A program made the translations under genes and the position numbers. The notes under the pieces are model-generated. The model saw only the letters and a list, made by a program, of their open reading frames with translations, made no database searches and was not told the origin of the DNA. DNA of 64,000 bases from Pseudomonas kribbensis (GTDB lineage: Bacteria; Pseudomonadota; Gammaproteobacteria; Pseudomonadales; Pseudomonadaceae): positions 1,364,001 to 1,428,000 of the forward strand of contig NZ_CP029608.1 of the NCBI RefSeq assembly GCF_003352185.1. The letters run 5' to 3'. Below, piece by piece: positions 48,668 through 64,000 of the stretch (position 1 is its first letter; the number at the start of each line of letters is the position of its first letter).

Positions 48668-51250
48668 TTAGATCCGGTTCTTAAGTGCATATAACATTTC
48701 GAGTGCCCGACGCGGCGTCACGTCATCGAGATCCAGCTTGGCCAGTTCGTCCAGTACCGGGTGCGGCAGGCTGGCAAACATGTCGCTTTGCTGCGGCGTA
48801 GCCGGTTTGCCTTTGGCGGCAGGCTTTGGCGCCTCATGGGGCAGTGCGGTGTCCTCCAGGCGGCTCAAGTGCTCGCGGGCGCGCACGATCACTTCACTCG
48901 GCACACCGGCCAGTTGCGCCACGGCCAAGCCATAGCTTTGGCTGGCCGGCCCCGGCAACACATGGTGCAGGAACACAATGCGTTCGTTGTGCTCGGTGGC
49001 GTTGAGGTGCACGTTGGCTACCAGAGGCTCGGCTTCCGGCAACACGGTCAGTTCGAAATAGTGCGTTGCAAATAGAGTATAGGCACGCAAATGTGCCAGT
49101 CGCTCAGCCGCCGCCCATGCCAGCGACAAACCGTCGAAGGTGCTGGTGCCGCGACCGACTTCGTCCATCAACACCAGGCTGCGTTCGGTGGCGTTGTGCA
49201 GGATGTTGGCGGTTTCGCTCATTTCCACCATGAAGGTCGAGCGTCCGCCGGCCAGGTCGTCGCTGGAGCCGATCCGGGTGAAAATCCGGTCTACCAGCGA
49301 CAGCTCGCAACTGGCCGCCGGCACGAAGCTGCCGATATGCGCCAGCAGCACGATCAATGCCGTCTGGCGCATATAGGTGGATTTACCGCCCATGTTCGGA
49401 CCGGTGATCACCAGCATCCGGGTGTTGTCGTCCAGGCTAAGATCGTTGGCCACGAACGGCGTCGTCAGCACTTGCTCGACCACCGGGTGACGGCCCTGGG
49501 TGATGCGCATGCACGGTTCGCTGACAAAGGTCGGGCAATTCAGGTCGAGATTCAGGGCTCGTTCGGCAAGGTTGCTCAGCACATCCAGTTCAGCCAGCGC
49601 GCCAGCGGTATCCTGCAAGGGCGGCAACTGGCTTATCAGATCTTCCAGAAGCGCCTCGTAAAGCATCTTCTCGCGAGCCAGGGCACGGCTCTTGGCCGAC
49701 AGCGCCTTGTCTTCGAATTCTTTCAGCTCAGGGGTGATAAAGCGCTCGGCGCCCTTGAGGGTCTGACGGCGAATGTAGTCTGCCGGTGCCGATTCGGCCT
49801 GCTTGCTCGGCAGTTCGATGAAGTAGCCGTGGATACGGTTGTAGCCGACTTTCAGGTTGGCCAGGCCGGTACGGGCCTTTTCCCGGGCTTCCAGATCGAT
49901 CAGGAACTGGCCGGCGTTTTCGCTCAGCGATTGCAGCTCGTCGAGCTCGCTGTCGTAGCCGGTTTTCAGGACGCCGCCGTCACGGATCACTGCCGGTGGG
50001 TTGTCGATAATGGCTTTTTCCAGCAGCGCCGCCAGTTCCGGGTAAGTGCTGGTGGTGGTGGCCAGACGTTGCAGGTGTGGCGCTTCCAGGTCGGTCATCG
50101 CCACTTGCAGTTCCGGCAGGGCGCCGAGTGCGTCACGCAGGCGGGCGAGGTCGCGAGGGCGGGCATTGCGCAGACCGATCCGCGCCAGAATCCGCTCGAT
50201 GTCGCCGATTTCCTTGAGCTGCGGTTGCAGGCTTTCAAAGCGATAGCGGTCGAGCAGGCAAGTGATCGAGCTCTGGCGAGCCAGCAGCACAGTCAGATCG
50301 CGCAGCGGTCGGTTCAGCCAGCGAGTCAGCAAGCGGCTGCCCATGGCGGTCTGGCAACGGTCGACCACCGATTGCAGGGTGTTGTCGCGGCCACCGGCCA
50401 GGTTGGTGTCGAGTTCCAGGTTGCGGCGGCTGGCGCCGTCCAGCACCACGGTGTCGTCCAGACGTTCGTGGCGCAGGCTGCGCAGGTGGGGCAGGGCGGT
50501 ACGCTGGGTTTCCTTGGCGTAGGCCAGCAGGCAACCGGCAGCGCCGATGGCCAGGGTCAACGTTTCGCAGCCGAAGCCTTTGAGGTCCTGGGTCGAAAAC
50601 TGCTGGCAAAGACTTTTCAGCGCCGAGTCGCGCTCGAAATCCCACGGCGCACGGCGACGAACGCCACGGCGTTTTTCCGCCGGCAGGTCCTTCGGCCAGT
50701 CATCCGGGATCAACAGCTCGACCGGGTTGACCCGCTCCAGCTCCGCCAGCAGATTCTCCCAGCCCTTGATCTCCAGCACGGTGAAGTTGCCGCTGGTGAT
50801 GTCCAGCACCGCCAGACCGAACAGACGCTCATCCCCCAGCACCGCCGCGATCAGGTTGTCGCGACGCTCATCCAGCAGTGCCTCATCGCTGACCGTGCCC
50901 GGGGTGATGATCCGCACCACCTGACGCTCTACTGGCCCTTTACTGGTGGCCGGGTCGCCGACCTGCTCGCAGATCACAACCGACTCGCCGAGCTTGACCA
51001 GCTTCGCCAGATAGCCTTCCGCCGCGTGATACGGAATCCCGCACATCGGAATCGCCTGCCCCGCCGACTGCCCGCGAGCGGTCAGGGTGATGTCCAGCAA
51101 CTTGGCCGCTTTCTTCGCGTCTTCGTAGAAGATCTCGTAGAAGTCGCCCATGCGGTAGAACATCAGCTGGTCCGGGTGCTGATTCTTCAGGCGCCAGTAC
51201 TGCTGCATCATCGGAGTGTGGGAGGACAGGTCGGAGACGGCTTTATTCAT
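48668..51250 (-). CDS. mutS: DNA mismatch repair protein MutS
   Basis: An 860-residue mismatch-binding ATPase. The mismatch-probing Phe37-x-Glu39 is in GDFYEIF. The connector, lever and clamp domains follow. Walker A is [13 protein letters not shown] (about 617-629), Walker [17 protein letters not shown], with [14 protein letters not shown] and a C-terminal tetramerisation tail. The stop lies in a small duplicated segment (ATCCGGTTCTT twice, 48650-48681). In P. fluorescens tailocin and prophage clusters are known to sit between mutS and cinA, which fits the genes that follow. Confidence 0.98.
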
Positions 51251-51397
51251 CGGATTGTCAGGTAACTCGTTGGAAGGTGTGGGGCAAAAGCGGGGCAGTC
51301 GCCCGGCTTTTCCGCGATGGGCGCAAGGTTACCATGGGCGGTCTGTCGGACGCAGGCATCGCGGCCGGGTGACATCTATCTGGCGCAAAAAGGTCGA

Positions 51398-51418
51398 TTA
51401 TGCACGATTTATGCAAAT
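51398..51418 (+). promoter_or_regulatory. Candidate operator sites upstream of prtR
   Basis: Two TTATGCA elements (51398-51404 and 51409-51415) lie about 45-55 bp upstream of the prtR start, and a further TTATGCA overlaps its second ATG (51459-51465). The same half-site occurs at the tailocin promoter near 52335-52350. This suggests that PrtR represses both units. No good -10/-35 pair was found with certainty. Confidence 0.45.
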
Positions 51419-51460
51419 CAGCATTTGTCTTCCCGAAAAACTTCAAGCACTATGCGCGTT

Positions 51461-52195
51461 ATGCAAAAACGCAACGTATCCTCCGTCTTAAGAGCACTGC
51501 TCGATCAGCACGGGATCTCCCCCACGGAGCTCCACCGTCGCACCGGCGTGCCTCAATCCACTCTCTCGCGGATTCTCAGCGGGAAGATCGTCGATCCTTC
51601 GGATAAACACATCTCGAAGATCGCCGAGTACTTCGCCGTGAGTACCGATCAGTTGCGCGGGCGCGCGGATGTTGCGCCGGTCGCGGGCGGCGGGCGCGAG
51701 GAGTTGCATTCCGAACTCAAGGACATAAGCCTGTGGGACGATGACACGCCCGTCGATGACGACGAGGTGTCGGTGCCCTTCCTTCGCGAGGTTGAATTGG
51801 CTGCTGGATCAGGAAGATTCGTCATCGAAGAGAGCGAACGCTCTAGCCTGCGTTTCGGCAAGCGCAGCCTGCGCCATAACGGCGTGCAGTTCGACCAGGC
51901 CAAATGCGTGACCGTGCGGGGCAACAGCATGTTGCCGGTGTTGCGCGACGGCGCCACTGTCGGTGTCAACGCGGGCAAGTGCGGGATCGGCGACATCATC
52001 GATGGCGACCTTTATGCGATCAACCACAACGGTCAGTTGCGAGTGAAGCAGCTCTATCGCCTGCCAACCGGTATTCGCCTGCGCAGCTTCAATCGCGACG
52101 AACATCCGGACGAGGACTACAGCTTCCAGGACATGCAGGAAGAGCAGATCGTCATCCTCGGTCACGTCTTCTGGTGGGGCATGTACGCCCGGTAA
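51461..52195 (+). CDS. prtR: PrtR-like tailocin repressor (HTH plus S24/LexA-type domain)
   Basis: A 244-residue repressor. N-terminal helix-turn-helix at about 20-45 (SPTELHRRTGVPQSTLSRIL) and C-terminal peptidase S24 domain with Ser156 (GNSMLP) and Lys196 (VKQLYR). The pair AAG at 114-116 provides an Ala115-Gly116 bond, the usual RecA-stimulated self-cleavage site. After DNA damage it should cleave itself and release tailocin genes, as PrtR does for P. aeruginosa pyocins. ATG 51461 is preferred; ATG 51452 is also possible. It lies next to mutS, in the same direction as the tail genes. No PrtN-type activator gene is visible. Confidence 0.85.
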   Translation: MQKRNVSSVLRALLDQHGISPTELHRRTGVPQSTLSRILSGKIVDPSDKHISKIAEYFAVSTDQLRGRADVAPVAGGGREELHSELKDISLWDDDTPVDDDEVSVPFLREVELAAGSGRFVIEESERSSLRFGKRSLRHNGVQFDQAKCVTVRGNSMLPVLRDGATVGVNAGKCGIGDIIDGDLYAINHNGQLRVKQLYRLPTGIRLRSFNRDEHPDEDYSFQDMQEEQIVILGHVFWWGMYAR

Positions 52196-52212
52196 CGATC
52201 CCTCTCTCAGAT

Positions 52213-52240
52213 AAAACCCGCCCACGGCGGGTTTTTTTTC
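52213..52240 (+). terminator. Terminator after prtR
   Basis: AAAACCCGCC and GGCGGGTTTT with a CAC loop, followed by further T, 17 bp after the prtR stop. It isolates the repressor gene from the tailocin promoter. Confidence 0.88.
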
Positions 52241-52300
52241 GCCTGTAGAAAACCGGACAACCCTTGATTGGCGGGGCTTCCATGCGCCTGCGCAATTTTC

Positions 52301-52354
52301 ATGCATAAATAAATGCATTTGCGCATTGACTGGATATGCATACATGCATATTCT
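52301..52354 (+). promoter_or_regulatory. Tailocin promoter with palindromic operator-like sites
   Basis: TTGACT (52326-52331), exactly 17 bp, then TATTCT (52349-52354) is a strong sigma-70 promoter. The spacer holds the palindrome TATGCATACATGCATA (52335-52350). A second set of ATGCAT elements lies at 52301-52318. A dimeric repressor bound there would block polymerase. PrtR is the obvious candidate. Confidence 0.75.
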
Positions 52355-52360
52355 TGCCAC

Positions 52361-52648
52361 CAAGCCGCTCGACAAAGCGGCTGGCAACAACAGCTCTTTA
52401 GTTCCACAAGAACAGGCAGCGATGAACCGGCCTCAACGGTTCAGAGGGTTGGCAACTGACCCGGGTGTGCAGCGTAAAGCACCAGAAGCAGTTATCCGGC
52501 GGGCAGGGACCGCGGTCGGAAAAACAATTTGAACGGACTCGTACCGCGCCAGTAGCGCCGAAAAGTCAGCTTCCTTCACGTACACAGGATTGAAGGAAGG
52601 CAAAGGAGTGCATTACTGAAAAGCCCGGCGCATTGCCGGGCTTTTTGG
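52361..52648 (+). ncRNA. Structured leader or stand-alone RNA ending in an intrinsic terminator
   Basis: Downstream of the promoter are about 285 nt in which I find no credible gene. I see ordered hairpins: AGCCGCT/AGCGGCT (52363-52382), GAACCG/CGGTTC (52424-52442), CTTCCTTCA/TGAAGGAAG (52570-52599) and the terminator AAAAGCCCGGC/GCCGGGCTTTT with T-run (52619-52646). Whether it is a small RNA or a leader controlling read-through into the tail genes cannot be told from sequence. Confidence 0.45.
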
Positions 52649-52650
52649 AA
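52619..52650 (+). terminator. Intrinsic terminator, hairpin copy 1 of 4
   Basis: An 11-bp stem AAAAGCCCGGC/GCCGGGCTTTT, loop GCATT, then TTGGAATGC. Nearly the same sequence, including the flank GGAGTGCATTACTG, recurs at 54312-54361. Related hairpins stand after each of the following small genes. Confidence 0.85.
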
Positions 52651-52726
52651 TGCTCCTCTGAGCAGATCACCTGCAATGAATATTGTGCAGAGCAGGGCCT
52701 GGTTGAATAGACAAAGGGAAATTGGA

Positions 52727-53158
52727 ATGAATCGTTATGCATTTATGGAGTTGATCTCTGGGTACAGCTTTTATCTGGTCAACCAAATCGTGGAGGCTGA
52801 AAGTCAGCCGCCATTTCCTGCACAGGGAGGACCGATGGACTACTGGATGGATATCACCGCAAATCCAGAGGTTCACGTTGGCTTGATATACAGGTACTCC
52901 GGCTCGGCCCCGGGCTTTTTTGAACCCGTTTACGCGGACTACCTGGCCATTGCCGTTGCACGCAAAAAGCAGCGTTTTCTTATCGCAGCCGAATGGCTGA
53001 CGTATAACCCGCTGCAATACCGGGTAGAGCTGGGTGCCGCAACCCCGGCAGAGGTCACGCAATGGCAAGCCTACAAACAGTACATCGTCGACCTGACCGA
53101 GATTAACAATCAGCCCGGTTATCCAACGGCGCTCAACTGGCCGGTTGCTCCTTTCTGA
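52727..53158 (+). CDS. Tail fibre assembly-like protein, copy 1
   Basis: 143 residues. The C-terminal box YKQYIVDLTEINNQPGYP..LNWP resembles phage tail fibre assembly (chaperone) proteins, and the N-terminus MNRYAFMELISG...LVNQ follows the same pattern as the two genes after it. Start at ATG 52727 behind a weak purine-rich site; the frame extends upstream into the hairpin region. It is lower in GC than the tail structural genes and is flanked by hairpins on both sides. No fibre gene is adjacent, so its client is unclear; it may serve the fibre at 57943-61212 or be a relic. Confidence 0.6.
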   Translation: MNRYAFMELISGYSFYLVNQIVEAESQPPFPAQGGPMDYWMDITANPEVHVGLIYRYSGSAPGFFEPVYADYLAIAVARKKQRFLIAAEWLTYNPLQYRVELGAATPAEVTQWQAYKQYIVDLTEINNQPGYPTALNWPVAPF

Positions 53159-53201
53159 GTCACTCGCCTCACAAGACTTCCACAGCGCGTGCGCGATTGA
53201 A

Positions 53202-53226
53202 GAGCCCGGCGTAATGCCGGGCTGTT
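53202..53226 (+). terminator. Hairpin copy 2 of 4
   Basis: AGCCCGGC and GCCGGGCT with loop GTAAT, followed by GTTTGAAGTGC, 43 bp after the first small gene. The T-run is interrupted by a G, so termination should be weaker than at copies 1 and 4. Confidence 0.65.
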
Positions 53227-53310
53227 TGAAGTGCATGCGGATGCAATCGCTGTGGCAGTACCTCTGGAGATGAACGCATCTTCGTGAAATATCAAACCAA
53301 GGAGCAGGGA

Positions 53311-53712
53311 ATGAAGTTGTTTGCGCTAGTAGAAGGATCGAAGGTTACCCGTCTGGTGGAAAGTGAAGAGATGCCGATTTCAACTTCACCCTTTGGTAAC
53401 TGGATCGATGTAACCGGAAACACTGAAATCGCAGTGAATGACCGCGCGTCTTTCAATGGCGGCTGGACGTTCACAAAACCAAGCGATGCGGAGCTGATCA
53501 GCGAGATCGAATATGACGCACTGTTGCGATTGAGAGACATTGAAAATCGTCTGTTGAGGAAGTCTTTGCAGTTCAAGGTTGATCTTGGCGTAGCCGAACC
53601 TGCCGAAGCGGCGTTGTTGCTGGTTTATAAGCAGTACTCCATTGCCATCAGCGATCTCAATAAACAACCAGGTTATCCACGGACTGTTGTTTGGCCCGTT
53701 GTGCCTCAGTAA
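53311..53712 (+). CDS. Tail fibre assembly-like protein, copy 2
   Basis: 133 residues from ATG 53311, which has AAGGAG at good spacing; an in-frame GTG at 53284 lacks one. Domain pattern: N-terminal MKLFALVEGSKVTRLVES...W.DVT with GGWTFTKP (about 40-55), then a helical segment and the C-terminal YKQYSIAISDLNKQPGYPRTVVWP box. Clearly a paralogue of its two neighbours and, in the N-terminal half, of the fibre chaperone at 61212. Low GC compared with the tail genes suggests separate acquisition. Confidence 0.62.
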   Translation: MKLFALVEGSKVTRLVESEEMPISTSPFGNWIDVTGNTEIAVNDRASFNGGWTFTKPSDAELISEIEYDALLRLRDIENRLLRKSLQFKVDLGVAEPAEAALLLVYKQYSIAISDLNKQPGYPRTVVWPVVPQ

Positions 53713-53756
53713 GCCGGTTTAACCACTCAATGAATCGTTCAGGATCGCATGACTGA

Positions 53757-53789
53757 TAAGCCTTGCCTAAGCGCCGGGCTTTTTTGAAT
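53757..53789 (+). terminator. Hairpin copy 3 of 4, diverged
   Basis: AAGCC and GGGCTT pair around a longer, changed loop and run into TTTTTTGAATGCC. The 3' half and tail match the other copies, while the 5' half has decayed. 45 bp after the second small gene. Confidence 0.5.
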
Positions 53790-53853
53790 GCCTTGACTGA
53801 TTCAGACAGATTTTCAGGCAAGTCCGGGATTCCGGCAGATCAAGGTAATAGTG

Positions 53854-54273
53854 ATGAAAAAGTACGCACGCATTGTCGGCGGTAAGGTCGACAACCTTTT
53901 TGAAACCAATAACCCGATTCAAGAAGAGTTCCCTGCCGATCAACTTTGGGTGGATGTTACAAGTCTTTCCATTAACCAGATCGACTATGACTCGACGGCA
54001 GTCAATAACGACGGCGTCTGGACGTTCAGCGCTCCGGACCCAGCGATGCCGAGCTGGTTGTCACTGCGATTGAACAACGAACGAAACACCCGCCTCGCCA
54101 AGTTGAACGATCGCCTGACCGCGACCGCGCTGCCATTCAAGGTCGAGTTGGGTATCGCGACAGACGCCGACAAGGCTTATCTGCGGGCTCACAAGCAGTT
54201 CTGCATCGACCTGAGTAATGTAAACAAACAGCCTGGCTACCCACTGACCGTTGTCTGGCCGCCATTGCCATAA
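53854..54273 (+). CDS. Tail fibre assembly-like protein, copy 3
   Basis: 139 residues from ATG 53854 (a GTG at 53851 is adjacent), with AAGG upstream. The N-terminus MKKYARIVGGKVDNLFETN is strikingly like MKKYALLYMGKAAQLFETD of the chaperone encoded after the tail fibre. The C-terminal HKQFCIDLSNVNKQPGYPLTVVWP box is shared with copies 1 and 2. So the N-terminal module is common to all four, and the C-terminal module to these three. Function as fibre chaperone is inferred. Confidence 0.65.
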   Translation: MKKYARIVGGKVDNLFETNNPIQEEFPADQLWVDVTSLSINQIDYDSTAVNNDGVWTFSAPDPAMPSWLSLRLNNERNTRLAKLNDRLTATALPFKVELGIATDADKAYLRAHKQFCIDLSNVNKQPGYPLTVVWPPLP

Positions 54274-54311
54274 ATGCAATTGCGGTACTTGCTCCAGCAG
54301 TATCGTAAACC

Positions 54312-54361
54312 GGAGTGCATTACTGAAAAGCCCGGCGAGATGCCGGGCTTTTTGGAATGCC
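54312..54361 (+). terminator. Intrinsic terminator, hairpin copy 4 of 4
   Basis: AAAAGCCCGGC/GCCGGGCTTTT with loop GAGAT and TTTTT, flanked by GGAGTGCATTACTG and GGAATGC as in copy 1. It lies directly before the holin gene, so the lytic and structural genes must be reached by read-through or by an internal promoter. Confidence 0.82.
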
Positions 54362-54425
54362 TGCCTCGAGAGAAAACGTTTGAACCCAACACACACCACT
54401 CATCCATCACACCAGGAGGCGTGAC

Positions 54426-54764
54426 ATGACAAACGAGCAACAAGCGTTGGCGGACATGCCGATCTGGCTGGTCATCCTGCTTGCCGTGGCGGGCGGGGTC
54501 TCCGGCGAAATGTGGCGCGCCGACAAGGACGGCGCCCGCGGCTGGCCGCTGTTGCGCCGGCTGGCCCTGCGCTCCGGCGCCTGCATGATCTGCGGCGTCT
54601 CGGCGATCATGCTGCTGTACGCAGCCGGTATGTCGATCTGGGCCGCCGGCGCTTTTGGCTGCCTGACCGCAATGGCCGGTGCCGACGTGGCCATCGGTCT
54701 GTATGAACGCTGGGCCGCCAAACGCATCGGCGTCTGCGAAGTTCCTCCGCGCGACCCGCAGTAA
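54426..54764 (+). CDS. Phage-type holin
   Basis: A 112-residue membrane protein with three hydrophobic segments (about 13-26, 46-64 and 66-84) and a charged C-terminus. The strong ribosome site AGGAGG precedes ATG 54426. It matches the R-pyocin holin in size and position (first gene before the conserved 173-residue protein and baseplate V). It would make the inner-membrane lesion for release of tailocin particles by lysis; the endolysin should lie beyond the window. Confidence 0.83.
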   Translation: MTNEQQALADMPIWLVILLAVAGGVSGEMWRADKDGARGWPLLRRLALRSGACMICGVSAIMLLYAAGMSIWAAGAFGCLTAMAGADVAIGLYERWAAKRIGVCEVPPRDPQ

Positions 54765-54837
54765 CCCCTTCACTTTCCTGTCTCGTTGCATGCCATGCGG
54801 CGGGACTGCGCGTGGACATTCGAAAAGGAGGTCATGC

Positions 54838-55359
54838 ATGCCCGCACCGATCCGGCAGCCATCGCAGCTGTTCACGGCGATGGCGACAGCCTTGCGCAAC
54901 AACGCCGACCTGAACGTGCAGGTCGGCACTCACGACGACTTCACGGCCCCCGGCGACAAAGCCTGGGTGTTGATCGACATCGAACGAAATGCACCGGGAG
55001 AGCGCGCCGCCAATGGGCGCATTGCCCACGCATTGACGCTGTCCCTTCAGGTTATTCCGGCCATATCCGCCACCGCGTTTGCCGCGTGTGACCTGATCGC
55101 CGCCCTGAAAAACCTGATCACCGACAACCGCTGGGGCCTGCCAGGCGATCAGTGCGATCTGCCGATGAATCTCGATGGTTTGTCGTCACTGGCGATTCGC
55201 GCCGATCAGCCCAACAAGGCCTGGACCCTGACATTCAACCAGACCCTCTACCTGGGCCCGACCTTGCTCGACGACCCGCTCGGCACACCGAAATTCGCCC
55301 GAACCTGGGAAGTCAGCGACATCGACGACCCCGACCAATACACCTCGCTGGAGGCCTGA
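54838..55359 (+). CDS. Conserved R-type tailocin/phage protein of unknown function
   Basis: 173 residues, no signal peptide. ATG 54838 has the strong site AAGGAGG; the frame is open upstream, but those residues are unsupported. In the P. aeruginosa R-pyocin cluster a protein of similar size occupies the same place between holin and baseplate V. The mixed alpha/beta sequence (VLIDIERNAPGERAANGRIAHALTLSLQV) is reminiscent of tail completion or terminator proteins, but I cannot confirm this. It is 3 bp before baseplate V. Confidence 0.65.
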   Translation: MPAPIRQPSQLFTAMATALRNNADLNVQVGTHDDFTAPGDKAWVLIDIERNAPGERAANGRIAHALTLSLQVIPAISATAFAACDLIAALKNLITDNRWGLPGDQCDLPMNLDGLSSLAIRADQPNKAWTLTFNQTLYLGPTLLDDPLGTPKFARTWEVSDIDDPDQYTSLEA

Positions 55360-55362
55360 CCG

Positions 55363-55971
55363 ATGTTCGACGCATTACTGCGTATGCAACTGGGCCCGAT
55401 CATCGAGCGCCTGGCCGAGATGGAAGCAGAGATCGAAGACCTGCACCGACGCGCCGAAAGCTATTGCCGCATCGGCATTTGTCAGGAAGTCGATGCGGCG
55501 AGCAATACCTGCAAGGTCAGTCACGGAGGATTGCTCACCCCGGCGATCAAGTTCTTCAACCCGAGCGCCGGCGCCCAGAGCGAATCGCGGATTCCCAGCG
55601 TGGGCGAACAGTGTCTGCTGTTCAACTACGGCAGCGGCGAAAGCGGTGCGCAAAGTGTGGCGTTGTTCGGCTTGAACAGTGACCGTTTTCCACCCGTTGC
55701 AACCATTCCCACGCTGACGCGACGGGTGCATGCCGATGGCAGCGAAAGCGGCTACGACGACGCCTCGCACACCTTGCACTGGCAAAACGGTCCTGCGGCT
55801 TTCAGCGGTTCCCGTGAAGCGCTTGAGCTGAGCATCGGCCCGGCGCGACTGGCGATAACGCCGCAAGCGATCAACCTGCAACTGGGCGCCGTCGGCCTGA
55901 CGATCGACGCCTCGGGCGTGCACTTCAGCGGCCCGTTGGTGGATCACCAGGGTCGCGTCATCAGCCCCTGA
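55363..55971 (+). CDS. Baseplate assembly protein V (central spike)
   Basis: 202 residues. An N-terminal coiled coil (about 10-32) and an OB-fold domain (about 33-110, RIGICQEVDAASNTCKVSHGG...PSVGEQCLLFNYG) are followed by a C-terminal beta-helical repeat part (ELSIGPARLAITPQAINLQLGAVGLTI), the P2 gpV pattern. It would form the membrane-piercing spike of the contractile tail. Confidence 0.88.
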   Translation: MFDALLRMQLGPIIERLAEMEAEIEDLHRRAESYCRIGICQEVDAASNTCKVSHGGLLTPAIKFFNPSAGAQSESRIPSVGEQCLLFNYGSGESGAQSVALFGLNSDRFPPVATIPTLTRRVHADGSESGYDDASHTLHWQNGPAAFSGSREALELSIGPARLAITPQAINLQLGAVGLTIDASGVHFSGPLVDHQGRVISP

Positions 55972-55985
55972 ATCAAGAGCCTCCC

Positions 55986-56318
55986 ATGATCGGAATCGAT
56001 AGAGACACCGGGGCCACGGTCGACGACTGGCTGCAATTCGTGCAGCGCGCGACACGAGCCCTGACCACGCCGCTGGGCACCCGGCAAAAAAGGCCCCTTT
56101 ATGGTTCGTTGATCCCCACGCTGCTGGGGCAAAACCTCGGCGATGACGTTCTGCTTCTGGCCCAGAGCCACGCCGCGCAGGCGTTCTACAACCCGCAGAA
56201 CGGCATAGGCGATTTCCAGCCCGGCGTGATCGTCGCCACCCGACAGGGCGCCGGCCTGCTGCTGCGGTTCGCCGGCACCTGGAAAAACCGCCAACAGACT
56301 TTCGAGGTCGTGACATGA
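55986..56318 (+). CDS. Baseplate protein W (gpW/gp25 family)
   Basis: 110 residues with the gp25-like pattern: IGIDRDTGATVDDWLQFVQRATRALTTPLGTRQKRPLYGSLIPTLLG. It forms part of the inner baseplate wedge. Overlaps gene J by 4 nt. Confidence 0.88.
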   Translation: MIGIDRDTGATVDDWLQFVQRATRALTTPLGTRQKRPLYGSLIPTLLGQNLGDDVLLLAQSHAAQAFYNPQNGIGDFQPGVIVATRQGAGLLLRFAGTWKNRQQTFEVVT

Positions 56319-57310
56319 GCATGTTGATCCCTGGCCAGAACCAACTGGCCGAACCTTCGCTGATCAAGGTCGAAGCCCTCGAGGATTTGCTGGCCGAGTT
56401 CAAGACCTTCGTCCTGGAATACGTCGGATCCCGCTCGCCGCAGAGTGCTGCGAAACTCAAGACCAGCCTGGAAAACGAAAGCGAACTACTGACCATGGCG
56501 CTCGAAGCGTTTTGCGTTCGCCTGCAGACCCACGAACGCAAATACAACGCCCGCATCAAGCAGATGCTGGCGTGGTGGGCCACCGGCAGCAACCTCGATG
56601 CGCGGCTGGCGGACATGGGCCTGGAGCGACAGTTGCTCGATCCGGGCGACCCGGCGGCATTCCCGCCGGTGCCGGCGATTTACGAAAGCGACGATGACGC
56701 CCGGTTGCGCTACTACCTGGCGCCCCATGCGCCGGCGGCGGGTTCGCGGATGCAGTACCGCCGCGAGGTGTTCACCCTCGGCGAGCGGCCGTCAGTGAAA
56801 GTCGAATCCACCGATGCCGGCGTCGTCGACGTTACCTACACCTTTGCCCCGGACGGCCTCGCCGCACAGGTCAAGGATGGCAATGGCCGTCGCACAGCCC
56901 CCGGAGAAGTGCAGGTGACTGTGCTGTCCCGCGATGCCGACGGCACACCGTCCGCCGCATTGCTCGACGGCGTGCGCCAACATTTCGCCCGGCCCGATGT
57001 CTGCCCGGAAACCGACAAGGTCACGGTCAAGGGCGCCGAGATTCAGCGCTACAAGATCCGTGTCGTGGCGAAGATCAATTCCGGCCCGGATTCGGGCCTG
57101 ACCAAAGTCGCCGCCGAGCAACATCTGCAAGCCTACGCCGACAGTTGCCATCGTCTGGAAGGCCGGGTCGATCCGAGCTGGATCGACTACACGCTGCACA
57201 GCGCCGGCGCCGTGCAGTTGCAGATTCTTGAACCGTTGACACCCATCGTGTGCACCGCGTTTCAAGCGCCGTACTGCACGGCGGTCGAGGTCGAGGTGCA
57301 GACACTATGA
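56315..57310 (+). CDS. Baseplate protein J
   Basis: 331 residues of the P2 gpJ/T4 gp6 family. Typical blocks are an N-terminal helix region, MLAWWATGSNLDARLADMGLER (about 88-110), the DDDARLRYYLAPHAPAAGSRMQYRREVF segment and the C-terminal domain with repeated beta-alpha units. It connects wedge subunits of the baseplate. Overlaps W and I by 4 nt each. Confidence 0.88.
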   Translation: MSMLIPGQNQLAEPSLIKVEALEDLLAEFKTFVLEYVGSRSPQSAAKLKTSLENESELLTMALEAFCVRLQTHERKYNARIKQMLAWWATGSNLDARLADMGLERQLLDPGDPAAFPPVPAIYESDDDARLRYYLAPHAPAAGSRMQYRREVFTLGERPSVKVESTDAGVVDVTYTFAPDGLAAQVKDGNGRRTAPGEVQVTVLSRDADGTPSAALLDGVRQHFARPDVCPETDKVTVKGAEIQRYKIRVVAKINSGPDSGLTKVAAEQHLQAYADSCHRLEGRVDPSWIDYTLHSAGAVQLQILEPLTPIVCTAFQAPYCTAVEVEVQTL

Positions 57311-57942
57311 CGGACCAGACACCGCGTCCGACCCTGCTGCCGGCCAACAGCTCGGCGCTGGAACGGGCGCTCGATATCGGCTTCGGCACCTTGCTTGACC
57401 GCATAGCGCCGCCGTTTCCCGAATTGATGAACCCAAGCGCTACGCCGGTCGCGTTCCTGCCGTATCTCGCCGCGGATCGCGGCGTGGCCGAATGGAGCAC
57501 CGACGCACCGGAGGCGGAAAAGCGCCTGACTGTCGAACTGGCGTGGCCCACTGCGCGCCAGGCCGGCACTCGCAAGGCGCTGGAGAACGCCGCCAAGGGA
57601 TTGCAACTAAGGCCGGAAGTCCGCGCCTGGTACGAACAGACACCGCCCGGCGAACCCTACAGTTTTTCCGTGCGGGCCTTCAGCGAACAACCCTACAGCG
57701 AAGAAATCGACGCCCGTCTCGACCGACGCCTGGCCGATGCCAAGAGCGAGCGGGACGTGCTGTCGGTGTCGGTCGGCCTCAGCGCCTTTGGCTCTCATGT
57801 GATCGGCGCCGCGACCTTCTGCGGCGAACTGACCACGGTCTATCCGGTGTTCCTCGAAGGCCTCGAAACCTCCGGTGAAGCCTTCATGGCGGCCGGTCTC
57901 TACACCGTCGAAACATCCACTATTTATCCTCAGGGGGCCTGA
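57307..57942 (+). CDS. Tail protein I (baseplate-fibre connector)
   Basis: 211 residues from ATG 57307 inside the gene J stop (ATGA). P2 gpI features are LLPANSSALERALDIGFGTLLDRI near the N-terminus and FLPYLAADRGVAEWSTDAPEAEKR. It should anchor the tail fibre to the baseplate. The tail fibre gene begins at the next base after its stop. Confidence 0.87.
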   Translation: MTDQTPRPTLLPANSSALERALDIGFGTLLDRIAPPFPELMNPSATPVAFLPYLAADRGVAEWSTDAPEAEKRLTVELAWPTARQAGTRKALENAAKGLQLRPEVRAWYEQTPPGEPYSFSVRAFSEQPYSEEIDARLDRRLADAKSERDVLSVSVGLSAFGSHVIGAATFCGELTTVYPVFLEGLETSGEAFMAAGLYTVETSTIYPQGA

Positions 57943-60900
57943 ATGGCTGACTATTACACCCTGCTCACCAACGCAGGGATTGCCTACGAAACCGCCTGCA
58001 AGGCCGCGGGCGTACCGATCAAGCTGACGCAGATTTCCGTCGGTGATGGCGGCGGCGCGGTCTACAACCCGGCCGCGACAGCTACCGCGCTCAAGCGCGA
58101 AGTCTGGCGCGGACCGCTCAATGCGCTGTTCCAGGACGAGAAAAATCCGAGCTGGCTGCTTGCCGAAGTGACCATTCCGCCGGATGTCGGCGGCTGGTAC
58201 GTGCGTGAAGCCGGGCTGTGGACCGACACCGGCATTCTCTACGCCATCGTCAAATACCCGGAGTCGTTCAAACCGGTTCTGGCCACGTCCGGCTCGGGCA
58301 AAGAGTTCTACATCCGCTCGATTTTCGAAACCAGCAATGCCTCGCTGGTGACGCTGCTGATCGATGACACTGTGGTCAAGGCCACTCGCGCCTGGGTCAT
58401 GAGCTACCTCGCCGAAGAACTCGGCAAACTCGATGGCAAGCAATCGGTGCGCGTCGCCGCCACCGCCAACGTGGTGTTGAACGGTGCGCAGCAGATTGAC
58501 GGCGTTGCCGTGATTGCCGGCGACCGCGTGTTGCTGCCGAACCAGACCCTGGCGAAAGACAACGGCCTGTGGATCGTCGCCAACGGTGACTGGGTGCGGG
58601 CCAGCGATGCCAACGTCAGCGCCAAGGTCACACCGGGCCTGACGGTGATGGTGGAAGAGGGCACGCTCAACGGCGATTCGCTGTGGCACCTGACCACCAA
58701 CGCACCGATCACCCTCGGCACCACAGCGCTGACATTCAAGATGCTCGCGGGGCGTACCGGGATTGCCGCCGGGACTTACAAAAGTCTGAGCGTCGACGAA
58801 TATGGCCGTGCAACGGCCGGCTCGAATCCCGACACGCTGGCCGGGTTCGGCATCAAGGACTCCTACACCAAGGCTGAAGTCGAAGCGCTGATCGCCAAGG
58901 CCTCGGCGTTGCCGGTGGGGTCGATTGTGGCGTTCCCTGTCGATACGCCGCCACCGGGTTTTCTGGAGCTGGACAACAGCGTCAAGAGCAGCGCGACTTA
59001 CCCGGACTTGAGCGCTTATCTGGGCGGCAAGTTCAACAAGGGGGATGAGGGCGTCGGGAATTTCCGGTTGCCGGAAGCGCGCGGGGAGTTCTTGCGGGGT
59101 TGGGATCATGGGCGTGGGGTGGATGCCGGGCGTGGTGTAGGCAGTCGGCAGAAAGGTTCGCTCTCTGGTTATGACGCGGATTCGAACGGTCTCAGTGCCG
59201 CGATGGGGATGGGGTCAGCAAGTGGTAGCAAGGCTGACGATTTTGGGCTGGATGCATATTCAGCATCAGGGAATGCGTACTCCGTAACGATGGGTTACGC
59301 CACTTTGATTGGTTCCAGTACACCGAGCGATCTGTACGCTGGCATTGTCAGACCACGCAACATCGCCGTCATGTGGTGCATCAAAGCCTGGAACGCCCCG
59401 ATCAATCAGGGAAATATCGATGTAGCTGCACTGGTCAAGGAAGTCTCCCGCTTGGGATCTGCCGTTCCGGTGGGTGCTGTCATGGCGTTCCCGACGGGGA
59501 TCGTGCCGCCAGGTTTTCTTGAGCTGGATGGCAGTGTGCAAAACATTGCGACTTACCCGGATCTGGCGGCTTACCTGGGAACAACATTCAACAAGGGCGA
59601 TGAAGGAGTTGGTAACTTTCGGTTGCCGGAATCGCGTGGTGAGTTCCTGCGTGGCTGGGATCATGGTCGTGGTGTGGATAGCGGGCGAAATTTTGGCACG
59701 TATCAGGCTGACGATTTCAAGGCGCACAATCATCCGCCGGCAAATAATCGTCCGGGCTTCATGACTAATGAGTTTCCAACGGTTCAGGCATATCACGCAG
59801 CCGCTTCGGGGGGACCTCAATCCTACTCGGGTGAAGGGCAACAGATTGCTACGACGGGTAACCGGGGAGGCACGGAAACCCGCCCCCGCAACCTCGCCGT
59901 CATGTGGTGCATCAAGGCCTGGAACGCGCCGATCAATCAGGGAAACATCGACGTCGCCGCACTGGCCGCCGAGCTGGAGAAAATGAAATCGGCGGTACCG
60001 GTGGGCGCCCTGATGCCATTCCCGGCTGGCGTAGTGCCGCCCGGCTATCTGGAAGCGGACGGCAGTCTGTTTCAGGACGCGCTCTATCCGCACCTTGCTG
60101 CGCACCTGAGCAAGAAATTCAACATCACCGGTGACGATGCGAGCTATACGCGGCTACCAGATACCCGCGGCGAATTCCTGCGGGGCTGGGATCACAACCG
60201 CGGTATCGATCCTGGCCGAACGGTGGGCAGTTGGCAAAAAGGTTCAGGTCATAGTTTTGACCAAGGCGCATCAGCCGGGATAGTGGGGGATCGAACGCCT
60301 AGCACTGATGCGGTGGTTGGCCGTGCGGACTTGGGGTATGACCCGGCAGCGCTGTCGGATTACCCCGTGGCACAAAATATGTCGGCTTCCGGCATTGGCG
60401 CTCCCATTACGAGTGCTGGTGAAATTTCTTTCGGTTCGACCCGCCCGCGCAACTTGGCGGTGATGTGGTGCATCAAGGCCTGGATCACACCGGTTAACCA
60501 GGGAACGATTGATATCGCCGCGCTTGAGCAGCGGGTGATTAGAAACGAGTTTGGCCGCCTTCTGAATATTCAGAAATTCACGGATAACGGCACCTACATT
60601 CCGACGCCGGGGATGAAGAAGGTGCGGATTCGAATTGTGGGCGCTGGTGCAGGATCTGGCGGTGCGTCTGCTACGGCAGCTGGCCAAGTCTCAGCGTCTG
60701 GTGGTGGCGCGGCTGGTGGCTATGCGGAGGCGTTACTGACGGCAGCGGATATTGGCGCGAGTCAGTCGGTAATCGTAGGGCTCGGCGGGATCGCAGGAAC
60801 CGCTTCAGGCACAACAGGAACCGGTGGTGGTACAGGCGGCGCCTCATCGGTGGGGGCTCTGTTATCTGCCCCCGGTGGGCTGGGGTCAATCTTTTCCATT

Positions 60901-61212
60901 GCTGTTCCGACATCAGGTTATGCCTTGTACGTAGGCGGTTATCCGGGGGCGCCCGCCTCGGGGGGCAACTTGCTCAACATGCCCGGGGCACCTGGAGCTC
61001 CAGGCATATCCGTCAATGGTTCGACGTTGGCTGGCCATGGCGGTAGCGGGGCGCTTGGTGCGGGTGGAAGCGGCTACGGTATCGGCGCACCGATTCAGGT
61101 CGGTACAGGATACGGGGGCGGTGCTGGTGGTGTGGCCAACGGCCAGTCCAGTGCAGCTCGTAATGGCGCGCCGGGAGCTGGTGGTGTTGTTATTTTCGAG
61201 GAATACGCCTGA
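57943..61212 (+). CDS. Tail fibre protein with three tandem collar modules
   Basis: 1089 residues. The N-terminal 150 residues (MADYYTLLTNAGIAYE..., GGWYVREAGLW) are the conserved tail-attachment domain of P2-type fibres. A shaft follows (about 150-320). Three collar-like modules start near residues 322, 507 and 684, each with PPGFLELDGS, YPDLAAYLG, FNKGDEGVGNFRLPE, RGEFLRGWDHGRG, a variable stretch, and RPRNLAVMWCIKAWNAPINQG. The last 180 residues are glycine-rich (VGAGAGSGGA...), a common receptor-binding tip. It determines the target strain range. The variable parts have lower GC than the scaffold. Its stop overlaps the chaperone gene start. Confidence 0.9.
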   Translation: MADYYTLLTNAGIAYETACKAAGVPIKLTQISVGDGGGAVYNPAATATALKREVWRGPLNALFQDEKNPSWLLAEVTIPPDVGGWYVREAGLWTDTGILYAIVKYPESFKPVLATSGSGKEFYIRSIFETSNASLVTLLIDDTVVKATRAWVMSYLAEELGKLDGKQSVRVAATANVVLNGAQQIDGVAVIAGDRVLLPNQTLAKDNGLWIVANGDWVRASDANVSAKVTPGLTVMVEEGTLNGDSLWHLTTNAPITLGTTALTFKMLAGRTGIAAGTYKSLSVDEYGRATAGSNPDTLAGFGIKDSYTKAEVEALIAKASALPVGSIVAFPVDTPPPGFLELDNSVKSSATYPDLSAYLGGKFNKGDEGVGNFRLPEARGEFLRGWDHGRGVDAGRGVGSRQKGSLSGYDADSNGLSAAMGMGSASGSKADDFGLDAYSASGNAYSVTMGYATLIGSSTPSDLYAGIVRPRNIAVMWCIKAWNAPINQGNIDVAALVKEVSRLGSAVPVGAVMAFPTGIVPPGFLELDGSVQNIATYPDLAAYLGTTFNKGDEGVGNFRLPESRGEFLRGWDHGRGVDSGRNFGTYQADDFKAHNHPPANNRPGFMTNEFPTVQAYHAAASGGPQSYSGEGQQIATTGNRGGTETRPRNLAVMWCIKAWNAPINQGNIDVAALAAELEKMKSAVPVGALMPFPAGVVPPGYLEADGSLFQDALYPHLAAHLSKKFNITGDDASYTRLPDTRGEFLRGWDHNRGIDPGRTVGSWQKGSGHSFDQGASAGIVGDRTPSTDAVVGRADLGYDPAALSDYPVAQNMSASGIGAPITSAGEISFGSTRPRNLAVMWCIKAWITPVNQGTIDIAALEQRVIRNEFGRLLNIQKFTDNGTYIPTPGMKKVRIRIVGAGAGSGGASATAAGQVSASGGGAAGGYAEALLTAADIGASQSVIVGLGGIAGTASGTTGTGGGTGGASSVGALLSAPGGLGSIFSIAVPTSGYALYVGGYPGAPASGGNLLNMPGAPGAPGISVNGSTLAGHGGSGALGAGGSGYGIGAPIQVGTGYGGGAGGVANGQSSAARNGAPGAGGVVIFEEYA
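58907..60498 (+). repeat. Three tandem collar-module repeats in the tail fibre gene
   Basis: Periods of about 554 and 531 nt. The first and last parts of each unit are strongly alike at DNA level (for example the ATGTGGTGCATCAA segment at about 59371, 59902 and 60463). The stretch between GRG/GR-x-x-GS and RPRN differs completely in each unit. Confidence 0.85.
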
Positions 61213-61748
61213 TGAAGAAGTACGCACTCCTGTACATGGGCAAGGCTGCCCAGCTGTTCGAAACCGACGGCGACATAAAGACAATGTTTCACCCGGACAT
61301 GATCTGGATCGAATGCCCCAACGAGGTCGAGGAAGGCTGGCTGTATGACGGCAAGCAGTTTGCGCCACCGGGGGTTCCGGTCGAGTCGCTGGATGAACTC
61401 AAGGCATCGGTGGCGGATGAGCGCTTCGTGCGTGAGGGTGTTGGCATCGTCGTCGACGGCCTGAACATCGAAACAACCCGCGACAGCCAGGCGCTGATCG
61501 CCAGTACTGGCCTATCGGCTATCCTCGATCCGGAATACCGCTGCAATTTCAAAACAGCGAAGGGATTCGTCGAGATTGGCGCTGCGCAAATCATCGAAAT
61601 TGCGAAAGCCGTGCGAGCACACGTGCAGGCCTGCTTTGACCGCGAGCTGACGTTGTTACGTGCAATCGAGACCGGCGAATATCGCGACGAAATGCTTGCC
61701 GAAGGCTGGCCGGATTCATTGTCGCCCGATACCGCAAATCTCAAATAA
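61212..61748 (+). CDS. Tail fibre assembly chaperone
   Basis: 178 residues, starting one base inside the fibre gene. The N-terminal MKKYALLYMGKAAQLFETDGDIK...W.YDGKQFAPP module (1-57) is shared with the three small genes upstream of the holin. The C-terminal part, with LSAILDPEYRCNFKTAKGFVEIGAAQI, resembles the DUF4376-type domain seen behind many fibre genes. It should help the fibre trimer fold. Confidence 0.82.
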   Translation: MKKYALLYMGKAAQLFETDGDIKTMFHPDMIWIECPNEVEEGWLYDGKQFAPPGVPVESLDELKASVADERFVREGVGIVVDGLNIETTRDSQALIASTGLSAILDPEYRCNFKTAKGFVEIGAAQIIEIAKAVRAHVQACFDRELTLLRAIETGEYRDEMLAEGWPDSLSPDTANLK

Positions 61749-61776
61749 ACGCCCCGCACCCCGGGGCGTTTTCTTT
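61748..61776 (+). terminator. Terminator after the fibre chaperone
   Basis: ACGCCCCG and CGGGGCGT with a 5-nt loop, then TTTCTTT, directly after the chaperone stop. Termination here would split fibre genes from sheath and tube. Confidence 0.82.
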
Positions 61777-61801
61777 CCCCCAAAAAAACTCAACACCCGC
61801 C

Positions 61802-61830
61802 AAGCCCCTCCCCACGAGGGGCTTTCCCGT
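61802..61830 (+). terminator. Second hairpin before the sheath unit
   Basis: AAGCCCCTC and GAGGGGCTT with loop CCCAC and a short T/C tail, 18 bp before the small gene's ATG region. With the preceding hairpin it forms a double barrier or attenuator. Confidence 0.6.
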
Positions 61831-61847
61831 TTATGGAGAAACGAAAA

Positions 61848-62033
61848 ATGGCAACCCGCCAAACCTACACCGTGCTCGTTCCATTCCCCACCGGCGGTGG
61901 GCACTGGTCGAGCGTCGGCCAGGAACTCGATCTGCTCGATGTCGAGGCCAGTGCCCTGCACAGCGCCGGTCGACTGGAGCTGAAAACACCTACCACCAAG
62001 GCCGTGAAGGCCGCTGCCAAGAAGGCTGACTGA
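61848..62033 (+). CDS. Small tailocin protein preceding the sheath
   Basis: 61 residues from ATG 61848 with GGAG upstream; Lys/Ala-rich C-terminal tail (KAVKAAAKKAD). Small proteins of this size stand directly before the sheath gene in Mu-like and related contractile tails (DUF2635-type), but I cannot assign it to a family. It is 2 bp before the sheath gene. Confidence 0.6.
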   Translation: MATRQTYTVLVPFPTGGGHWSSVGQELDLLDVEASALHSAGRLELKTPTTKAVKAAAKKAD

Positions 62034-62035
62034 AT

Positions 62036-63202
62036 ATGGCTGAGGTTCTGAACTTCGAGCACAACGGCATTACCGTCAATGCCACCGAATCCCCCGAGGC
62101 CATGGGTGGCCTGGGTGACAACGTCATCGGTCTGGTCGGCACCGCGCCGAAAGCCGATCCGCTGATTCCGCGCAACGCACCGTTTCGCATCAACAGCTTT
62201 ACCACCCACGCGCTGCTCGATCCGACCGGCGCGGAAGAGGGCACCCTGTACCACGCGGTTTACCAGATCCTCAAAGTGGTCAAGGTGCCGGTGTACGTGG
62301 TGATCGTCGAAGCGGGCGCGACCCCGGCCGACACCGTCAACGCAGTGATCGGCGGCATCGAGCCAGCCACCGGCCGCAAACTCGGTCTGGCGGCACTGGG
62401 TAGCGTCCCGGAAGACCTGACCATCATCGGCGCGCCGGGCTTCACCGGCACCAAGGCTGTAGCCAGTGAGTTCGCCTCGTTCGGCAAGCGCATCAAGGCC
62501 CGTGTGGTGCTGGACGGCAAGGACGCTTCGGTCGCTGACCAGGTGACTTACAGCCAGGAACTGGGCGGCGCCGACCTCGGTTTCGACCGTTGTCTGGTGG
62601 TGCACAACATGCCCGCCGTGTACTCGAAAGCGGCGAAGAAAAACGTCTTCCTCGCGCCATCCAGTCTGGCAATCGCCGCGCTGGCCAAGGTCAAGCAATG
62701 GGAAAGCCCGGGCAACCAGGTGACCTACGCCGAAGACGTGTCCCGGGTCGTTGAGTACAACATCCTCGACACCTCCACCGAAGGCGATCTGCTCAACCGC
62801 TACGGCGTCAGCTACTACGCCCGCACCATCCTTGGCGGCTTCTCGCTGCTGGGCAACCGCTCGATCACCGGCAAGTTCATCAGCTACGTCGGTCTGGAAG
62901 ATGCCATCAGCCGCAAGCTGGTGAAGGCCGGCCAGAAAGCCATGGCCAAGAACCTGACCAAGTCGTTCATGGATCAGGAAGTCAAACGCATCAACGACTG
63001 GCTGCAGACCCTGGTCGCCGACGAAACCATTCCCGGCGGCAGCGTGTATCTGCACCCGGAACTCAACAGCGTCGAGAAGTACAAGAACGGCACCTGGTAC
63101 GTGGTCATCGACTACGGCCGCTACGCGCCGAACGAACACATGGTTTATCAACTCAACGCCCGCGATGAAATCATCGAGCAGTTCCTGGAGGACGTTCTCT
63201 AA
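62036..63202 (+). CDS. Contractile tail sheath protein
   Basis: 388 residues with the sheath pattern: VIGLVGTAPKADPLIPRNAPFRINSF near the N-terminus, a central variable domain with GKRIKARVVLDG, AALAKVKQWESPGNQ, and the C-terminal handshake region (SFMDQEVKRINDWLQTLVADETIPGG, VIDYGRYAPNEHMVYQL). It contracts to drive the tube through the target envelope. Its stop overlaps the tube gene start. Confidence 0.92.
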   Translation: MAEVLNFEHNGITVNATESPEAMGGLGDNVIGLVGTAPKADPLIPRNAPFRINSFTTHALLDPTGAEEGTLYHAVYQILKVVKVPVYVVIVEAGATPADTVNAVIGGIEPATGRKLGLAALGSVPEDLTIIGAPGFTGTKAVASEFASFGKRIKARVVLDGKDASVADQVTYSQELGGADLGFDRCLVVHNMPAVYSKAAKKNVFLAPSSLAIAALAKVKQWESPGNQVTYAEDVSRVVEYNILDTSTEGDLLNRYGVSYYARTILGGFSLLGNRSITGKFISYVGLEDAISRKLVKAGQKAMAKNLTKSFMDQEVKRINDWLQTLVADETIPGGSVYLHPELNSVEKYKNGTWYVVIDYGRYAPNEHMVYQLNARDEIIEQFLEDVL

Positions 63203-63708: not shown

Positions 63709-63788
63709 GGCTTTTTGGCGACCGTGCACAAACCCTGCGGGCGTTCATGCCCGCAGGGATCTTCAAGAACACCCAAGGAATTCCTTTC

Positions 63789-64000
63789 ATGTCGTGGATG
63801 CCACCCAAGCATGACCTGCTCTCGCCGATCACCGGCGACGACGGCTCGCAGATCGAATCGATCCAGCTCAAACCCCTGTTCTACGCCGCCCAGAAAGAAG
63901 CGCTGGAACGCGCCGGCGACGATGAAGACGATCAGTTCTTCGAGCTGGCGCTGCTGGCCACTGGGATGTCGGTCAAGGAACTCGACCAGCTCAAGCGCCC
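63789..64000 (+). CDS. Tail assembly protein (gpE type), 5' part only
   Basis: The first 70 residues, cut by the window edge. Sequence MSWMPPKHDLLSPITGDDGSQIESIQLKPLFYAAQ and position right after the tube fit the P2 gpE-type tail assembly chaperone, which in many phages has a frameshifted second product; the shift site is not within view. Confidence 0.72.
   Translation, partial: MSWMPPKHDLLSPITGDDGSQIESIQLKPLFYAAQKEALERAGDDEDDQFFELALLATGMSVKELDQLKR

Follow-up and report, generated by a model that had tools for sequence, protein, structure and literature searches.

The 64-kb window of Pseudomonas kribbensis analysed here (the whole stretch, corresponding to C1:1364001-1428000 of a one-contig 6.3-Mb genome) contains three open reading frames (ORFs) of the Tfa family, located between the gene of a PrtR-type repressor and that of a superfamily III holin (PF16085) in the mutS/cinA R-tailocin cluster. 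The comparison of this locus with its relatives suggests, with a probability of roughly 60%, that the three genes occupy a cargo slot for tail fibre chaperones, placed behind a phage-type promoter and antiterminator leader in an SOS-type tailocin operon. An earlier note on this DNA had described three genes enclosed by four copies of one hairpin, and this array is indeed found at positions 52605-54360. What that note overlooked is the single hairpin existing in empty sites and its membership in a conserved leader RNA that temperate phages have as well; this leader, lying just outside the coordinates noted, is the most valuable part of the locus.

The slot was delimited using 60 loci taken almost in order of holin similarity, so that the sample represents a census of close relatives; a few loci were skipped, two of them because they were near contig ends. 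The holin itself is present in 135/199 Pseudomonas genomes. A prtR match was obtained in 58/60 loci (L061 and L066, lacking it, were excluded), which together with the window gives 59 prtR-hol gaps, whose length ranges from 269 to 3299 bp. Twenty-six of them are short and empty, 32 harbor cargo between the leader and the holin gene, and one (L021) is neither, its sole insertion being located upstream of the leader and containing an ORF that appears transposase-like by eye. Where the cargo consists of Tfa genes only, these are one (8 gaps), two (5), or three (2) in number; the other cargo gaps contain com and DUF642 (5), DUF642 (4), com and orf4 (2), or one of six mixtures. Over all gaps, there are 30 Tfa, 12 DUF642, 12 com, 4 orf4, and 3 sec142 genes and 1 acyltransferase gene; two secreted proteins belong to the cargo besides Tfa, Com, and DUF642. 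Pfam names were assigned to com, DUF642, and the acyltransferase, while orf4 has none and sec142 shows a sub-threshold match only. In all three arrays holding both, the Tfa genes precede com. In L026 (prtR-hol gap 303-1400, - strand), an acyltransferase-3 gene, possibly involved in surface-sugar modification, is located on the opposite strand between prtR and the promoter.

Rather than a single invariant copy, the relatives contain from zero to three Tfa genes, and near-identical neighbours differ in their cargo. As an example, L012, whose prtR and holin are 99.2% and 100% identical to those of the window, harbors Tfa, com, and DUF642, and L013 (98.0% and 100%) harbors com and DUF642 in the place of the three Tfa genes of the window. 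When the gap of the window is aligned with the empty gap of L036, positions 2-458 match at 93.7% and positions 2117-2230 at 93.0%, and the two blocks overlap in L036 solely at 409-457, i.e., at the hairpin. Since the overlap is restricted to the hairpin, the array is inserted at it and flanked by it. An exchange of cargo with breakpoints at the hairpin is thus supported by the sequence comparison, in agreement with the cassette-like build and the exchange at hairpins that had been proposed.

The hairpin is a composite fold, and the order of its motifs (outer stem, ACTG, inner stem, TGG, outer stem) is the same in tailocins and in prophage-type copies; in the latter, the loop is kept, the stems are quite different, and there is no T run. 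In the window, copies 1 and 4 are nearly identical and copies 2 and 3 are decayed, as the first reading of the sequence had it (Table 1), and copy 2 remained below the threshold (E<=0.05) in the search with the covariance model R2. The 20-nucleotide flank GCATTACTGAAAAGCCCGGC occurs, with up to three mismatches, twice in the window, versus 0.01 times expected from shuffles; a 21-nucleotide version, for which three mismatches were again tolerated, has four occurrences in the whole 6.3-Mb genome, of which the two exact ones are at the locus. R2 matches at E<=0.001 likewise number two genome-wide and belong to the locus, which rules out a genome-wide repeat resembling repetitive extragenic palindromes. 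The hairpin alignment covers 32 of 52 distinct sequences, and 12/15 of its pairs show changes on both sides. A single hairpin follows the leader in 25/26 empty gaps (in L070 in an altered form). The search for a second one, covering 57 sources with the empty loci left out, revealed a clear copy in 15 of the 19 Tfa-bearing gaps, a weak one in two (L012 and L059), and none in L027 and L043; among the 13 cargo gaps without Tfa, a second hairpin exists only in L041, behind sec142. At the genome level, R2 matches are present in 13/29 genomes, all 13 belonging to Pseudomonas, and in 0/10 genomes of other genera. Matches located away from the tailocin slot were observed at G003:C1:3253726, G015:C1:3593386, and G004:C2:127313; G003 and G015 have such a match yet none to the leader model R1.

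The three proteins, whose lengths are those given in the earlier note, are probably fibre chaperones of the Tfa family (PF02413), judging from their family membership. Against a PF02413 cut-off of 22.1 bits, genes 1, 3, and 2 score 26.9, 24.4, and 15.3 bits, respectively. All three match PHROGs 188 and 105 (tail fiber assembly), their top PHROG being 5572, of function unknown; moreover, the profile A7, built on 13 cassette Tfas, matches the sequence of the TfaMu structure 5yvq_B (E=1.5e-5, sequence only). NCBIfam assigned no family to any of the three, a tblastn search of gene 3 against phages gave no match, and an AlphaFold2 model of gene 3 (20-row alignment) was poor and was not used (mean predicted local distance difference test score 63, predicted template modelling score 0.37). 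The C-terminal box that had been described as shared is present in all three proteins and in all 13 aligned cassette Tfas, in a looser form than had been written: YKQY is found in Tfas 1 and 2 (HKQF in Tfa 3) and NKQPGYP in Tfas 2 and 3 (NNQPGYP in Tfa 1). The lower GC (guanine plus cytosine) content was borne out, with 53.2, 48.5, and 53.3% for genes 1, 2, and 3 versus 56.6-67.8% for prtR, the holin gene, and four tail genes. A recent duplication, the other half of the earlier proposal on their origin, does not agree with the pairwise BLASTP identity of 32-39% (in the alignment, 39% between genes 2 and 3 and 27% between genes 1 and 3) and was also rejected as the origin of the array. The best matches in other loci share 80% (gene 1), 51% (gene 2), and 61% (gene 3) identity. 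According to the ORF list, 29 of the 30 cassette Tfa ORFs encode at least 131 amino acids, the exception being that of L043 (102). The 26 matches to the cassette family at E<1e-29, found in 16/119 genomes, are all inside prtR-hol gaps, a restriction that partly follows from the query, since the profile was built from proteins of these gaps; weaker matches include Tfas beside second-tailocin fibres or elsewhere in the genome.

The leader RNA, located upstream of the array, is present in 58/59 gaps. It is near-invariant over about 160 nucleotides, conservation extending to about 52562 (alignments of 37/58 leaders and of 42/45 distinct leaders). The motif GCTCTTYAG, which is called boxA-like here for its presumed resemblance to the boxA of rrn and lambda, lies within 70 nucleotides of the core in 58/58 leaders of the tailocin set and occurs once in the window. 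The tailocin leaders are too conserved for covariation, so that phage and prophage-type copies were needed; in the resulting 35 aligned copies (33 distinct), 11/21 pairs change on both sides and 98.8% of the cells are paired in an alignment that was fitted to R1 and thus favours three of the helices. On each of the five measures, all 500 shuffles remained below the value observed, and slid controls dropped to 20-43% paired. The remaining helix, GGGK/MCCC, is not part of R1; two of its four pairs covary, and it forms a pseudoknot with AACTG/CAGTT. It replaced helix 1 of R1, which is broken at one pair in 7/33 sequences. In the region 51000-56000, Rfam gave nothing near any gathering score. The promoter-like site preceding the leader is the sole sigma70-like match in 51400-55400 (1.9 expected in shuffles); its credibility therefore derives from its position and conservation and not from the scan. 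It is kept in 12 aligned empty relatives, while its -10 element varies in some other loci. The possibility that the leader is a coding gene was discarded, since the Zn_ribbon_Com part is encoded further downstream and loci lacking com show the same conservation of the leader. In strain Q8r1-96, the Com ORF (EU982300.1; L076:2025-2333) is annotated from a start within the leader, and its Zn-ribbon begins at about L076:2151.

The same leader exists outside tailocins. The R1 core was detected in 68/119 Pseudomonas genomes and in 0/273 other genomes of the class, stricter filters having been applied for over 40 genomes, and BLAST retrieved the leader in 10 phage records. In PseuP_224, a lambdoid phage according to its authors (PMC10305613), it is located directly 3' of the cI gene; in Orimi01, it is flanked by a divergent repressor-like gene and by a gene row reaching an ERF gene; and in Medea1, a distance of 1.2 kb, occupied by two opposite-strand ORFs, separates it from the preceding cI. 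From their gene order, the rows behind the leader would represent early operons. A further 17 copies (L110-L126), of prophage type without each having been verified as a prophage, are located away from a tailocin holin; judging the largest upstream ORF, seven are preceded by a repressor-like gene, and the domain test, applied to these seven, found a helix-turn-helix and an S24 domain in 7/7. Sequence comparison thus indicates a leader common to the tailocin operon and to temperate Pseudomonas phages. In the 5.6-kb contig L126 (1503-3198), the leader is located between an S24 repressor gene and a gene with an SLT (transglycosylase) domain, so that an operon not belonging to a phage might be driven by the module as well.

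Table 1. Features of the prtR-hol region and of the neighbouring tailocin genes (positions refer to the window).
Feature	Position	Strand	Description or basis
mutS	48668-51250		Recognised from its translation; flanks the tailocin cluster
prtR	51452..52195	+	HTH_3 and Peptidase_S24 (LexA/CI-type) repressor; Pfam
Terminator-like hairpin closing prtR	52213..52240	+	Script and sequence
Promoter-like site	52326..52354	+	TTGACT-17-TATTCT; consensus scan, position, conservation
boxA-like motif at leader start	52393..52401	+	GCTCTTTAG; motif GCTCTTYAG
Leader RNA core, model R1	52412..52510	+	Four helices including a pseudoknot; covariance model and alignment
Hairpin copy 1	52605..52653	+	Stems GCATT/AATGC (outer) and AAAAGCCCGGC/GCCGGGCTTTT (inner), separated by the loop ACTG/TGG
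Tfa cassette gene 1	52727..53158	+	143 amino acids; PF02413, E=5.7e-6, above cut-off
Hairpin copy 2, decayed	53186..53234	+	76% identical to copy 1
Tfa cassette gene 2	53311..53712	+	133 amino acids; PF02413, E=0.023, under cut-off alone
Hairpin copy 3, decayed	53747..53791	+	Covariance model R2, E=0.002
Tfa cassette gene 3	53854..54273	+	139 amino acids; PF02413, E=3.5e-5, above cut-off
Hairpin copy 4, immediately 5' of holin gene	54312..54360	+	94% identical to copy 1 over 49 nucleotides
Holin	54426..54764	+	PF16085, Phage_holin_3_5; Pfam
Tailocin-1 tail fibre	57943..61212	+	PF12571, three Collar domains, C-terminal Gly_rich_2 just under cut-off; Pfam
Chaperone-like gene of fibre 1	61212..61748	+	DUF4376 (PF14301); PHROG 10508, tail fiber protein
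Strong terminator-like hairpin inside operon, before sheath gene	61750..61768	+	CGCCCCG-CACCC-CGGGGCG-TTTTCTTT

Downstream of the holin gene, strong terminator-like hairpins on the + strand are found in 44/61 loci, with 62 of them versus 26 on the - strand; the same scan called none in one mononucleotide shuffle. A simpler scan of 54300-64000 called 13 terminator-like sites versus 9.0 in shuffles, leaving the hairpin at 61750 uncalled. In the same interval, there is one promoter-like site (2.0 in shuffles), located inside the fibre gene, and none was detected in L135:1-17600 (3.4 in shuffles). Since the module occupies the place of the nut and put sites of lambdoid phages, and since the operon contains strong internal terminator-like hairpins and few promoter-like sites, antitermination is the most likely function of the leader by analogy. 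In the most likely model, PrtR would repress a single promoter preceding a structured leader made up of the boxA-like motif, the pseudoknotted core, and the composite hairpin, and this unit would act as an antiterminator in cis, similar in position to put and nut. The polymerase starting there would read through the hairpin copies and the internal terminators up to the holin, fibre, and sheath genes. The cargo between the leader hairpin and the holin gene would come and go by recombination at the approximately 49-bp hairpin, a process that would leave a hairpin copy behind most Tfa cassettes. Owing to their place at the head of the operon, the Tfas would be made early and abundantly upon induction and would act in trans on the downstream fibres. 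A broader proposal, according to which the module is a new class of cis antitermination RNA, widespread among temperate Pseudomonas phages and captured as the master switch of fluorescens-group tailocins, with its hairpin doubling as the recombination site through which the slot acquires or loses fibre chaperones and secreted proteins, is tentative and has somewhat less than an even chance of being correct.

In phage lambda, the nut sites consist of boxA and boxB and act together with N. The leader is similar in having a boxA-like sequence between promoter and operon, in the tailocins and in some prophage-type copies; no boxB-like element was identified in it, and an N gene was not searched for. 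Another parallel in position, with no homology claimed, is represented by the put RNAs of HK022, which are located downstream of early promoters and are described as acting without a dedicated protein (PMC9378689): in both cases, an RNA element acting, or predicted to act, in cis would follow an early promoter of a temperate phage. They differ by published description, put being about 70 nucleotides long with two stem-loops (PMC9378689); the leader has about 160 nucleotides, forms a pseudoknot, frequently contains a boxA-like motif, and is followed by the composite hairpin as a distinct element. In P. aeruginosa, AlpA is described as an antitermination factor of a prophage-derived, DNA-damage-induced lysis programme (PMC7969949, in whose text the word pyocin was not found); unlike the leader, it is a Q-like protein. 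Long operons containing several terminators, whether or not accompanied by antitermination, are also reported for conjugative elements (PMC8955417), which differ in that they concern Gram-positive conjugation and other components.

As to the locus itself, the mutS/cinA prophages of P. fluorescens occupy the same site, and Q8r1-96 (EU982300) has com and orf4 between prtR and hol. In the work of Mavrodi (2009), prtR and hol are presented as a segment of high conservation that adjoins a hotspot of recombination (PMC2647930); the portions of that article considered here do not describe the leader RNA, the hairpin, or the variable slot. The mutS/cinA hotspot and its mosaic prophages are also treated, in the parts considered, in PMC7815802 and PMC3390384. 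Among the listed titles and abstract openings, for some lists the top entries only and with few subscription journals, no description of the leader, the hairpin, or the prtR-hol slot was found. Concerning the Tfa proteins, a modular build and, for that of Mu, a presence in the particle have been reported (PMC9608196, in part). The cassette Tfas resemble those of Mu (5YVQ) and lambda in profile similarity, in the conserved C-terminal box, and in the variable N-terminal half; they are unlike them in having no adjoining fibre gene and in occurring as up to three diverged tandem copies at the start of a tailocin operon.

If the proposed model is correct, one SOS-controlled promoter could drive a long tailocin operon through internal terminators, and the locus would offer a defined slot for swapping fibre-assembly factors, which might contribute to the variation in killing range among strains that are nearly identical. 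The leader would also be a candidate antiterminator for temperate phages of Pseudomonas, a group with at least one member (YA3) in which no N gene was reported as found (PMC7326022).

Several observations weigh against this model. Two of the four hairpin copies of the window (2 and 3) are decayed, and 4/19 Tfa-bearing gaps have a weak second hairpin match or none. The hairpin sequences were preselected by a scan requiring pairing and are therefore 99.4% paired by construction. The T run present in the window is reduced or absent in other clades and in prophage-type copies, and hairpins 1 and 4 remain uncalled in the simple terminator scan. A perfect palindrome with a closed internal loop has replaced the usual form in L070 and in the second hairpin of L040, so that either there is no strict need for the loop or the two copies are defective. 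Regarding the leader, both its core and the hairpin are lacking in L037, which does have prtR and the holin gene; 12/22 copies outside the main set are devoid of the boxA-like motif (the copy of L116 was not placed by the scan), including L127 and L128, which precede tailocin holins in other clades. RNAalifold found no pair changed on both sides in the tailocin leaders alone, and the stability of the predicted fold does not exceed that of mononucleotide shuffles. Finally, in the loci compared by eye, the presence and number of cassettes did not follow the fibre type. The loop closure in L070 (gap position about 473) and in L040 is as expected from template switching at a quasi-palindrome.

Two alternative explanations concern the hairpins and the leader. 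The Tfa genes might be ordinary single-gene morons between plain bidirectional terminators, the leader being just a 5' untranslated region; the inner stem AAAAGCCCGGC/GCCGGGCTTTT does resemble a bidirectional terminator, and the second hairpin, clear in 15/19 Tfa-bearing gaps and weak in two more, fits such an arrangement. This explanation is unlikely in view of the fact that no promoter-like site precedes any Tfa gene (simple consensus scan of 51400-55400), that the fold with its outer stem and ACTG/TGG loop is conserved and the T run is not, and that the hairpin after the leader is also present in 25/26 empty gaps. Plain terminators are likewise improbable as the function of the hairpins, the conserved part being the composite fold and not the U-tract. 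Alternatively, the hairpins might be processing sites of the RNase III type, cutting a polycistronic message, with a leader governing mRNA stability or translation. A composite, covarying stem with a small asymmetric internal loop, presumably similar to the processing sites of T7, speaks for such sites, as does the second hairpin copy several hundred bases downstream in L111 and L116. The loop closure in L070 and L040 does not, and the leader core, the boxA-like motif, and the position behind repressor genes would be left unexplained, which makes this possibility improbable as well.

The other two alternatives concern the role of the Tfas. As had been noted, the cassette stands apart from any fibre gene, the nearest one found in the window lying 3.7 kb downstream (57943). 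That fibre, recognised in 30/61 loci, is in most of them directly followed by a chaperone-like ORF, which in the window belongs to a family (DUF4376) different from that of the cassette Tfas; behind other fibres, there is an ORF that carries a box of the RDWP type. Because DUF4376-type genes are found behind fibre 1 whether or not a cassette is present, the idea that the cassette Tfas replace a missing chaperone of fibre 1 was discarded. They might instead serve in trans the fibre of the second tailocin of the same strain (L135:15154-16314), a protein ending in EARPMNTALLFVIKY whose gene is not accompanied by a chaperone gene. In favour of this, a fibre with a similar tip is followed in G070 by a Tfa-like ORF, a lysozyme-like gene lies directly behind the fibre in G000, the genome of the window, and G150 and G033, which have the closest fibre N-terminus, carry cassette Tfas and no adjacent chaperone. 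On testing, this explanation was weakened and appears rather doubtful: G150 has an additional, stronger PF02413 gene elsewhere, and G112 and G037, with the same type of tip and no adjacent chaperone, have no genomic PF02413 match at E<=0.001. Since these two manage without such a match, a service in trans for this fibre type is possible but not needed. Lastly, the Tfas might be relics or decoys, i.e., functionless or selfish copies, or proteins interfering with the fibre maturation of superinfecting phages. High turnover, an identity within the array of only 32-39%, and the lack of an obvious partner would fit; on the other hand, all ORFs but one encode at least 131 amino acids, the C-terminal box is kept, and the closest subfamily is seen only at the slot, features that suggest selection and leave relics or decoys with a low probability.

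The flank of the cluster opposite to mutS (L135) contains genes recognised from their translations, which are presumably cinA-, recA-, and recX-like. In another genome (G097), the second tailocin (L137) harbors five short fibres in an array by the lysis genes, four of them with a chaperone-like ORF of differing types.

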